DNA of 9,707 bases from an uncultured Clostridia bacterium. GTDB lineage: Bacteria; Bacillota_A; Clostridia; Oscillospirales; Oscillospiraceae. The notes beneath the pieces are model-generated. The model ran no database searches. It saw only the letters and a list, made by a program, of their open reading frames with translations, and had not been told where the DNA came from. The DNA is taken from positions 1-9,707 of the forward strand of contig CAMKAP010000062.1 in the NCBI GenBank assembly GCA_946410505.1. The letters run 5' to 3'. A program made the translations under genes and the position numbers. Of this stretch, positions 78 through 1,920 are shown piece by piece (the first letter of the stretch is position 1; the number at the start of each line of letters is the position of its first letter).

Positions 78-839
78 TTATTCGATGCCCTGCTGGCGGC
101 ACCAGATGTCCATGACCCACTGTACGGGCAGGTGCTTGACCAGCGCCACCTGACGGCGGACGGGGCTGCCCAGAATGGAAACGGTCTTTTTCTTTTTCAG
201 GTCCGCCATGGCCTGGGCGGCCACCTCGTCCGGGCCGTACCAACGGTCCACATAGCGGATATACGCGTCGTGCTGGGCGTGCTGCTGAAACTCCGTCTTG
301 ATCCAGCCAGGGCAGACGCACATCACATGCACGCCCCGGGGCCGCAGCTCCCGCCCCAGCGCCCGGGACAGGGAGAGCACATAGCTCTTGCTGGCGCCGT
401 ACACAGCCTGATACGGCACCGGCTGCCAGGCGGAGTTGGAGCCCATGTTGACAATGGCGGCGCCCGGACCCATATAGGGCAGGCTCACGTGGCACATGGC
501 GGTGAGCGCCAGGGCGTTGAGCCGGGCGCTGGAGAGCTGACGCTGCAGGTCCTTCTCCGCAAAGGGGCCGAAAACCCCGCAGCCGGCGGCGTTGATGAGA
601 AGGCCAAGCTCCGGCTTCTCCTGCGCAAGCAGCGCGGCGTATTCCTCCACGGCCCGCTCCTCCGAAAGGTCCAGCGTCAGCGGGCGGATGCGGCTGCGGC
701 ACTTTCCGGCCAGCTCCTCCAGCCGGTCCCGCCGCCGGGCGATGACCCAGATCTCGTCAAACTCCATTTCCCGATCAACGGCATAGACAAATTCACGCCC
801 GATTCCGGCGGACGCTCCGGTGATTACGGCAATACGCAT
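78..839 (-). CDS. Short-chain dehydrogenase/reductase (SDR) family oxidoreductase
   Basis: This is a 253-aa classical SDR, the usual length for the family, and should be a cytosolic NAD(P)-dependent oxidoreductase. The Rossmann dinucleotide motif TGASAGIG is at residues 7-14 and NAAG at 83-86. The catalytic set is N108, S134, Y147 and K151 (YGASK), and PGWIKTEF at 177-184 follows. Arg residues 35-37 after the second strand suggest a preference for NADP(H). Overall it resembles the DltE/YqjQ-like, short-substrate-unspecified branch, and I cannot name the substrate. The start is well supported: AGGAGGAG lies just upstream (845-852) and a promoter-like pair is at 875-903. It is transcribed alone, away from the hairpin element. 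No hairpin terminator is seen after the stop; the probable IS end begins 23 bp downstream and may have replaced it. Confidence 0.93.
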   Translation of the reverse strand: MRIAVITGASAGIGREFVYAVDREMEFDEIWVIARRRDRLEELAGKCRSRIRPLTLDLSEERAVEEYAALLAQEKPELGLLINAAGCGVFGPFAEKDLQRQLSSARLNALALTAMCHVSLPYMGPGAAIVNMGSNSAWQPVPYQAVYGASKSYVLSLSRALGRELRPRGVHVMCVCPGWIKTEFQQHAQHDAYIRYVDRWYGPDEVAAQAMADLKKKKTVSILGSPVRRQVALVKHLPVQWVMDIWCRQQGIE

Positions 840-874
840 GTGCTCTCCTCCTGTAATCGGCTTAACGGTTCTTT

Positions 875-903
875 ATTGTATCACGCAACGCCGGCAGGAG
901 CAA
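875..903 (-). promoter_or_regulatory. Sigma-A-type promoter of the SDR gene
   Basis: On the minus strand TTGCTC (898-903) is followed after 17 bp by TACAAT (875-880). This is a reasonable match to TTGACA/TATAAT, placed 36 bp before the start codon and ahead of the AGGAGGAG ribosome binding site at 845-852. Confidence 0.5.
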
Positions 904-974
904 GGTACAAAGCGGCCGTCTCTGCGCTGTGGGGAAGACGAAAAAACAGCATTTCCCTTCTCTGCCCGGCATGA

Positions 975-1180
975 TATAATGATCATCGGATAGCGAAATC
1001 AATCGAAGATTCGATTGATTTCGCTGCCAAACGACAAGTTTGGCAGCGAATGATTCTAAAAATCATTCGCCCGATGCTCATTGCAATGAGTATATGGCAA
1101 AACAGCTTTGCTGTTTTGCTGCGCAGCAAAGCTGCGCGGCGAAAAGCTCTTTCGCTTTTCGCCATCCTATAATCATTATA
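975..1180. repeat. MITE-like element made of seven consecutive hairpins
   Basis: A 206-bp element is bounded by terminal inverted repeats: 975-998 matches the reverse complement of 1157-1180 at 21 of 24 positions, both ends starting TATAATGAT. Inside are perfect palindromes laid end to end. They are 993-1007/1010-1024 (15-bp arms), 1020-1032/1038-1050 (13), 1046-1055/1061-1070 (10), 1077-1090 (14-bp palindrome with no spacer), 1097-1106/1110-1119 (10), 1121-1127/1131-1137 (7) and 1138-1147/1154-1163 (10). Several neighbours share arm bases, so alternative pairings exist. Short open frames cross it on both strands, but they follow from the palindromes and lack plausible ribosome binding sites. 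The rest of the gene-free 840-1263 stretch holds the SDR promoter on the left. On the right, 1181-1250 is AT-rich and then mixed sequence with no clear promoter. The ends abut TA-rich DNA, which fits TA-targeted MITEs, but no duplication is proven. Confidence 0.8.
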
Positions 1181-1263
1181 ATAAATAATATGCAAATACG
1201 CAATTCAAACAATCGGCCGCGCGAAAAACGAGCCCTTCGTGGCCTTTAGTGGAGGGATAAAGC

Positions 1264-1920
1264 ATGAACATCGGACTGTACATCGGCAGACTCCTTACCC
1301 ATCCGGGCAAGCCGGACCGGAACAAGCGGCGGATCGCCTGCATCGGCGACAGCATCACCTTCGGCGCGGGCGTGGCGCAGACGAGGCAGCGGGACGCCTG
1401 GCCTTTCGTCTGGCAGCGCAGCCTGGGCGGCATCTTCCAGGTGCTCAACTACGGTGTTTCCGGCGCGACGCTGCAGCGGGAGGGCGATTTTCCCTACCAT
1501 CGGGTCGGATTTCTGAAGCACCTGAAGAAAGCCCGTCCGGAGCTGATCGTACTGATGCTGGGCACCAACGACGCCAAGCCCTACAACTGGGATGCGGCGC
1601 GGTTCAAGCGGGAATATGAAGAGTTCGTGTGGGAGCTGATCGCCCTGCCCTGGCCCCATCGGATCGTTCTCATGACGCCGCCGATGGCCTTTCCGGAAGA
1701 GCACAGCGGCATCATCGCCTTTGACATTGAAAACCTTCCCATTCGGGACGTGATCCGGCCCCTGGTGCGCGCTCTCGGCAAGCAGTATGGGCTGCAGGTG
1801 CTGGACCTCTATGCGCTGACCCGGAACCACCCCGAATATTTTGTTGACGGCGTGCACCCCAACCAAAACGGCAACCGCGTCATCGCGGAGCATCTTTCGC
1901 AAGAGCTGGCGCTGCGCTGA
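1264..1920 (+). CDS. SGNH/GDSL-type hydrolase (esterase/lipase family)
   Basis: This 218-aa protein has the full set of SGNH hydrolase blocks. GDS at 28-30 (S30 nucleophile) lies in IACIGDSITFGAG, YGVSGATL at 63-70 supplies the block II glycine, GTND at 100-103 gives N102, and DGVHPN at 195-200 gives D195 and H198 to complete the triad. No signal peptide or membrane segment is present, so it is probably cytoplasmic. Such enzymes cleave acyl, acetyl or other ester bonds on lipids, sugars or small molecules; the substrate cannot be read from the sequence, though a sugar or acyl deacetylase role is common for this size. The start is supported by GGAGGG at 1251-1256, 7 nt before ATG. It is a single gene downstream of the multi-hairpin element and converges on glyA. 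No convincing promoter was found between 1181 and 1250. Confidence 0.9.
   Translation: MNIGLYIGRLLTHPGKPDRNKRRIACIGDSITFGAGVAQTRQRDAWPFVWQRSLGGIFQVLNYGVSGATLQREGDFPYHRVGFLKHLKKARPELIVLMLGTNDAKPYNWDAARFKREYEEFVWELIALPWPHRIVLMTPPMAFPEEHSGIIAFDIENLPIRDVIRPLVRALGKQYGLQVLDLYALTRNHPEYFVDGVHPNQNGNRVIAEHLSQELALR

Follow-up and report, generated by a model that had tools for sequence, protein, structure and literature searches.

A non-autonomous, MITE-like repeat of about 200 bp with two three-hairpin domains, lying mostly upstream of genes in Clostridia and possibly inserting at an AT within -10 boxes

The window (the whole 9707-bp stretch of DNA that was analyzed) carries a 204-bp element at 976-1179 (plus strand), in a 424-bp gap between two divergent genes. 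The upstream gene (78-839, minus strand) encodes a short-chain dehydrogenase (Pfam PF00106) and the downstream gene (1264-1920, plus strand) a GDSL-like lipase (Pfam PF13472) preceded by a Shine-Dalgarno-like GGAGGG at 1251-1256 (plus strand). The element has no gene of its own and consists of two clusters of three hairpins. A 70-aa frame across it (983-1195, minus strand), which appears in databases as a hypothetical protein, was judged spurious, in agreement with the sequence-only reading of this DNA, which had seen no plausible protein here.

When the sequence was re-read and scanned for arms, all seven perfect palindromes described in that reading were recovered in 975-1180, and the sharing of arm bases between neighbouring palindromes was seen in the overlapping arms of hairpins 1 and 2. 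The plus strand folded at -112.4 kcal/mol, compared with -52.2 ± 4.6 kcal/mol for 200 shuffles (z = -13.1), the minus strand gave z = -14.0, and no shuffle folded as well on either strand. The outer ends (975-998 and 1157-1180) are complementary at 21 of 24 positions (88 %), as had been stated. The element proper was narrowed to 976-1179, position 1 of the earlier extent being poorly conserved; these limits were set from the conservation of 125 left and 120 right ends and from a filled and an empty site (L118 and L198).

The two borders are each formed by AT (976-977 and 1178-1179), either a 2-bp direct repeat or a crossover core, as judged from end conservation, the empty site and tandem copies at L091 and L239. 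They enclose a core AATGA...TCATT (978-1177). Together with the flanking T975, the left end of the element forms a -10-like TATAAT (975-980, plus strand) that reads into the element. The left end AATGATCATCGG (978-989, plus strand) is the closing arm of domain 1 and pairs with 1071-1082 (88.8 % of cells paired), with four pairs covarying and a single pair disrupted in 78 of 82 copies. Domain 1 contains hairpin 1 (992-1025; arms 992-1007/1010-1025, 16 bp, 100 %; 98.2 % of cells paired), hairpin 2 (1026-1044; palindrome arms 1020-1032/1038-1050, 13 bp, 100 %) and hairpin 3 (1046-1070; arms 1046-1055/1061-1070, 10 bp, 100 %; 99.6-100 % of cells paired). Double changes were seen in 9 of 15 pairs of hairpin 1 and in 6 of 10 pairs of hairpin 3 among the 82 copies. 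The centre, CCGATGCTCATT-GC-AATGAGTATATGG (1071-1097), holds the closing arms of both domains according to the consensus fold and covariation, and the central palindrome CTCATTGCAATGAG (1077-1090), read from the sequence, corresponds to hairpin 4. Domain 2 contains hairpin 5 (1096-1120; arms 1097-1106/1110-1119, 10 bp, 100 %; 97.9 % of cells paired), hairpin 6 (1121-1137; arms 1121-1127/1131-1137, 7 bp, taken from the fold) and hairpin 7 (1138-1163; arms 1138-1147/1154-1163, 10 bp, 100 %; 98.4 % of cells paired). The most often changed pair of all, with both sides altered in 29 of 82 copies, lies in hairpin 6. The right end ATCCTATAATCATT (1164-1177, plus strand) closes domain 2 by pairing with 1085-1094 (94.9 % of cells paired, three covarying pairs).

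BLASTN placed the element at 15 distinct positions in the nearest genome, G001 (24 BLAST rows merged by hand), seven of them full length, with 80-95 % identity, so it is not single-copy. At least 120 element stretches were obtained from named genomes by a pattern scan. Among the matches listed, 79 of 80 titles are of Oscillospiraceae, Ruminococcaceae, Clostridia or Clostridiales genomes, and the titles giving a source point to ruminants. One copy lies at a contig end of a MAG titled Synergistes (L075:6133-6300) and is probably a binning error. No match to the element was found in plasmids, phages or viral contigs. Across Oscillospiraceae, with at most two candidates scored per genome, the element was detected in 8 of 300 genomes and 6 of 106 genera, and in the same genus in at least 48 of 101 genomes. 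The host genomes are fragmentary or uncultured. The element seems to break assemblies, as 35 of 74 partial copies are cut off where their sequence stretch ends. It is short, non-coding, dispersed in many copies and bounded by terminal inverted repeats, as a MITE is; an autonomous element with the same ends was not found in four fragmentary genomes. The proposal of a non-autonomous MITE is thus borne out as a dispersed repeat with the same ends in many genomes. Copies lying close together were observed in L267 and on contig C13 of G343 (1-68, 891-1094, 1768-1972 and 19374-19577) and belong to a subfamily with somewhat different ends. In addition, one element-bearing segment (L158:600-1550, L180 and L181) is 98 % identical in G342, G369 and G336. 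Since longer matches to G342 and G369 at ten other G336 sites were only 72-86 % identical, the aligned sequences suggest that the entire segment was probably transferred laterally in one piece.

The consensus fold of 18 copies consists of two separate domains, each enclosing three hairpins, in which each end pairs with the half of the centre on its own side. The domains are joined at CATT-GC-AATG and each is closed by an end-centre pairing. The terminal inverted repeats of the sequence-only reading do pair with each other; they also pair with the centre, closing two domains. A main stem formed by the two ends was replaced by the end-centre fold on the basis of the 18-copy fold, covariation and own-versus-swapped pairing (see below). 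Among 82 copies, 30 of 79 pairs of the two-domain fold were changed on both sides (102 cells vs 16 when shuffled), and 27 of 83 pairs of the one-domain fold (101 cells vs 25), with shuffles that ignore the relatedness of the copies. When the partners were slid by 1-3 columns, just 29-51 % of cells paired. The mean minor letter frequency was 0.035 in stem columns and 0.206 in unpaired columns. The stems are therefore kept by double changes; neither a single copy nor stems lacking compensation, which had been named as grounds for giving up the idea of a mobile unit, were found. The one- and two-domain folds are mutually exclusive in the fold models, and a switch between them is possible. The centre is TGCA in 74 of 82 copies and the loop of hairpin 6 is AAA in 69 of 82, whereas the other loops are variable.

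Distant relatives were sought with a covariance model built on the one-domain fold. It matched 10 of 345 genomes of the order, including G001 and one false match (L244 in G666, a plain long hairpin, which was dropped), and 3 of 391 genomes of the class, one being G001. Once these were excluded, the relatives comprised eight genomes from six other families, plus two from other orders. The majority of these copies start with TATAA and end with ATTATA or similar (L265 is without the usual left end), and many have CATTnnAATG or similar in the middle; their stems differ in sequence and the number of hairpins varies. The covariance model rewards ends, so the shared ends were partly selected by the search. 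The comparison of own and swapped end-centre pairing is not biased in this way, because the model contains no end-centre pairing. In eight family representatives, own ends and centres scored 10.2 compared with 6.9 when swapped, with 0 of 1501 permutations as high, and end-end pairing scored 8.9 against 10.2 for end-centre pairing. Eight of nine representatives were used in this test; L242 was left out as its centre was not found by the regular expression, although its sequence does show CATTGCAATG.

At the borders, positions 2-8 have one letter in 93-99 % of the 125 left and 120 right ends, whereas position 1 is T in just 64 % of left and 59 % of right ends. No exact direct repeat of 3 bp or longer was found in 76 copies (those of 94 with ATA at both ends). 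The flanks share at most AT; a 2-bp AT duplication is possible, and the AT could belong to the element rather than being a duplication. Inexact resemblance between flanks was slightly above that of shuffled pairings (identity 0.33 vs 0.27 at 3 bp, z = 3.0; 0.30 vs 0.24 at 6 bp, z = 3.2) and negative at 4 and 12 bp, with 15 lengths tried. The AT model does not explain this increase. The filled site L118 reads TTGACT-N16-TATAATGACC...AATCAT-TATAATGG, and the orthologous empty site L198, which is one good example from another species, reads TTGACT-N16-TATAATGG. As judged from this one pair of sequences, the element appears to have entered a -10 box at L118 and restored it. In the orthologous gaps L194 and L197 no recognizable promoter is kept. 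End-to-end copies with a single AT between CATT and AAT are present in L091 and L239, as expected if the end of the element is itself a target. When empty sites were searched with joined flanks among the available loci, a diverged match (L151/L049) and two trivial matches were obtained. Ten joined sites compared with G342 and G369 gave one diverged match spanning the junction (L205 vs L223 in G369), the remaining matches covering one side or short pieces, and the L158 site gave no useful alignment through the junction.

A -35 box matching at least 5 of 6 letters at 16-18 bp was found at 9 of 120 left and 11 of 115 right ends, where 1.4 and 2.1 were expected. When 188 oriented ends of 94 copies were scored, such a box was present at 10 of 20 ends with AATG beyond the far end, at 4 of 26 with three AATG letters and at 3 of 142 with two or fewer. 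At six control spacings a -35 box was seen in at most 1 of the 20 AATG ends. A gene start lies on the far side of 19 of 20 AATG ends compared with 85 of 132 others (p = 0.004), and of 17 of 18 ends with the -35 box compared with 96 of 144 (p = 0.014). Overall, 27 of 95 copies carry a promoter mark (AATG or a good -35); the 68 copies without either may reflect decay, other targets or weak promoters. Among 16 distant copies, L237 and L239, both from other families, combine a 5/6 -35 box at 17 bp with AATG, and 14 are without this combination; the AATG of L239 belongs to the end of a neighbouring element.

The right flank of the window copy, AATA, agrees with AATG in three of four letters and the best -35 match is 3/6; these letters are only suggestive of a rebuilt promoter here. 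An inversion at this site was considered and set aside. G001 has an opposite-facing copy before the orthologous gene, the left flank alone aligns between G001 and the window (local score 22.5 vs 7.0), the junctions differ by 5-6 bp, and a second insertion is equally likely. The window could also be paired in the opposite sense with L029 and L054, with scores of 13.5 and 19.0, which exceed the 99 % and 99.9 % points for flanks paired at random. This pairing was rejected as a chance match among thousands of comparisons, because neither of the window's neighbour genes was found in L029 or L054.

To predict genes around the copies, a codon-model gene caller was given eight genes of the window as seeds, and Pfam supports seven of these. 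The gaps that hold 75 copies are divergent in 32, tandem in 41 and convergent in 2 cases, compared with 81, 198 and 91 of the 370 other gaps of at least 50 bp at the same loci. Tandem copies occur in both orientations (25 and 16). Shine-Dalgarno matches were found 4-22 nt outside 33 of 120 left and 31 of 115 right ends, and within about 25 nt of the ends 94 are directed outward and 10 inward. The element, a dispersed repeat of about 200 bp that is non-autonomous and MITE-like, lies mostly upstream of genes. This position could be due in part to purifying selection and not to target choice.

The sequence-only reading had proposed a search for a transposase gene with matching terminal repeats. 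When the element ends were sought in four fragmentary genomes with up to two mismatches, no such transposase was found, and the facing ends, 114-224 bp apart, were those within single copies. Some whole copies lie close enough together for their outer ends to face across 1-3 kb; four such places, with 0.7-2.7 kb between the copies, were examined (G001 C2, G343 C13, G363 C48 and G364 C12). None of the nine proteins between or beside them is a transposase: they are TraX, GDPD, PfkB, a hexapeptide transferase, DegV, a YgjP-like protein, HMA and two proteins without a Pfam match. Y1 transposases (IS200/IS605, REP) were rejected as the mover, being present in 28 of 48 carriers and 27 of 53 non-carriers (p = 0.55), and so were IS110 DEDD transposases, which are above the cut-off in 9 of 48 carriers and 11 of 53 non-carriers (p = 1); both comparisons were made on incomplete genomes. 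Elements of the IS110/IS1111 and serine-recombinase types have a 2-bp core common to element and target and no longer duplication. Serine recombinases and IS110-type enzymes typically use such 2-bp cores, which makes them no more than candidates for moving the element. Unlike elements of those types, the Clostridia element encodes no enzyme, and the presence of IS110 genes does not follow it.

In behaviour, the nearest known kind is the Correia elements, followed by RUP and BOX. According to the available text of PMC2649163 and PMC10969869, Correia elements (CREE/NEMIS, Neisseria) are about 100-200 bp long, have paired ends starting with TATA and contain no gene. The same text describes them as creating promoters, sitting upstream of genes and being able to invert, with the mobiliser undetermined. 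The Clostridia element is likewise small and geneless, with paired ends, a position upstream of genes and parts of promoters (here by sequence, in 27 of 95 copies). It differs in its ends, TATAATGATCATCGG (consensus of 82 copies) compared with TATAG[CT]GGATTAA (PMC2649163), in its target, apparently an AT within the -10 box compared with TA (or CA), and in its host group; two three-hairpin domains are not described in the available parts of PMC2649163 and PMC10969869. RUP and BOX of Streptococcus pneumoniae are small interspersed folded repeats with paired ends, BOX being modular (PMC3049150, in part), and the Clostridia element shares the small size, interspersion, folding and paired ends. 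RUP resembles IS630-Spn1 (PMC3049150) and inserts at TA (PMC2229807). In the portions available, neither of these two sources describes -10-box targeting for RUP or BOX, which are set apart from our element by these descriptions. CIR elements of Caulobacter also have two arms and a linker and are intergenic (PMC2229807, in part). By that description, they carry two long inverted repeats and a GANTC motif, in contrast to three hairpins per arm here. In their available text, none of the four papers (PMC2649163, PMC10969869, PMC3049150 and PMC2229807) mentions paired domains of three hairpins, a core of AT or -10 boxes as targets. In a literature search made without most subscription papers, nothing on such elements in Clostridia was seen among the best-ranked titles.

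Taken together, the reading that we favour, at a probability of roughly two in three, is a non-autonomous MITE-like repeat that inserts at AT with a preference for -10 boxes, rebuilds the promoter and is moved in trans. The marks carried by about a quarter of the copies support the view that the element enters at an AT dinucleotide, preferably that of T-AT-AATG, i.e. a sigma-70 -10 box. In that quarter, the AATG of the element end would restore TATAATG with the correct spacing to the pre-existing -35 box, and the rebuilt promoter, as predicted from these letters, could read through the element into the gene. The enzyme acting in trans would recognize the ends, perhaps as a folded single strand, and movement would involve a step with a 2-bp AT stagger or crossover. 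Rebuilding of the promoter would make the insertion tolerable and would in this way help to account for the spread. What goes beyond the sequence-only reading is the two-domain layout, the absence of any longer duplication of the target, the -10 box as target and the location ahead of genes. It is doubtful, but conceivable, that the element represents a distinct superfamily of mobile DNA across Clostridia, with folded single strands, an AT-core recombinase and sigma-70 -10 boxes as targets; its doubled architecture would then go back to the insertion of one unit into the T-AT-AATG end of a second, an arrangement like that of the tandems.

An ordinary MITE moved by a Tc1/IS630-type DDE transposase that duplicates TA would account for the paired ends, the TATA at the borders and the intergenic position, and both Correia elements and RUP are described as TA insertions in the available text of PMC2649163 and PMC2229807. 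The promoter signal would then be a by-product of TA-rich intergenic targets. TA duplication was rejected on position conservation, the empty site L198 and the tandem copies: positions 1 and 206 vary and positions 2-3 and 204-205 do not, and both L118/L198 and the tandem at L091 fit a shared AT and miss TA by 2 bp. Moreover, the coupling of -35 and AATG at 16-18 bp would not be expected from TA content, the facing ends 114-224 bp apart in the four genomes lie within single copies, and no transposase was found between neighbouring copies at the four places examined. We consider a TA-duplicating MITE unlikely.

The conserved pairing allows two further explanations. The element could be a structured cis-regulatory RNA (a 5' leader or switch), maintained because of its RNA fold and duplicated together with genes. 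In favour of this, its copies are located upstream of genes, some of them between promoter and start codon, its pairs covary and its one- and two-domain folds exclude each other. Selection at the RNA level was set aside, as no strand bias was seen between G.U and A.C cells. With one mostly-G.U pair left out, the counts are 63 and 64, and on the presumed transcribed strand they are 17 and 14 in 34 tandem copies and 11 and 16 in divergent copies. These equal counts give no pointer to one RNA strand and lend no support to the mobile structured-RNA unit offered in the sequence-only reading. Both orientations also occur among the tandem copies, and the element has no Rfam match above the cut-off (three weak matches in window 850-1300, all far below the gathering cut-off, and among eight distant loci one tRNA, outside the element). 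We consider a cis-regulatory RNA very improbable. Alternatively, a neutral DNA process alone, in which slippage during replication lets one arm serve as template for the other, could keep the pairing, and this has a somewhat better, still minority, chance of being correct. The hairpin-2 loop GGCAA in L080:2716-2921 is exactly reversed to TTGCC in L158:989-1194, in copies that are otherwise near-identical and have near-identical flanks, and by eye loops of the same reversed sense occur in L132, L086 and L091. In these sequences the reversed loop reads as a mark of DNA template switching. Together with the equal G.U and A.C counts, it argues that stem pairing is at least partly a DNA matter. Against slippage alone, end and centre arms about 90 bp apart keep pairing across orders, and the TGCA centre and AAA loop of hairpin 6 are constant while other loops vary, a pattern not expected from a blind process. 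Neutral slippage can explain the covariation, not the spread, and it is compatible with the favoured reading of a promoter-rebuilding repeat moved in trans, under which recognition of the hairpins, repair of imperfect palindromes through template switching, or a combination of the two would keep the pairing at the DNA level.

In most descriptions, small repeats insert into intergenic DNA in general. If the favoured reading is true, a repeat that targets the promoter core and restores the same letters would be a clean example of self-tolerated spread, and a 200-nt hairpin leader would be placed before many genes at once. The -10-box rule would also be a sharp prediction for the missing enzyme.

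The element gives rise to 'hypothetical proteins' in databases. The suggestion in the sequence-only reading that peptides read across such elements are annotated proved right, as all 37 of the candidate proteins correspond to the antisense frame that spans the element (for example, the NCBI MAG entry 'hypothetical protein IKI69_09335, partial [Oscillospiraceae bacterium]'). This frame belongs to no family; it matches only short hypothetical proteins, one of which is fused to a PF00766 protein. In that case (P0035), a protein carrying PF00766, an electron-transfer flavoprotein domain, continues into the element frame, so a copy has extended the end of a gene.

Two other sequence features were observed at element copies. 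At L148:1887-1995, a copy is interrupted by a different repeat, about 108 bp long, parts of which recur in L125, L086, L154, L074 and L071. At L158:1194-1260, the element is followed immediately by a long palindrome resembling a terminator (arm CGGGAGGAATAATTGTG).
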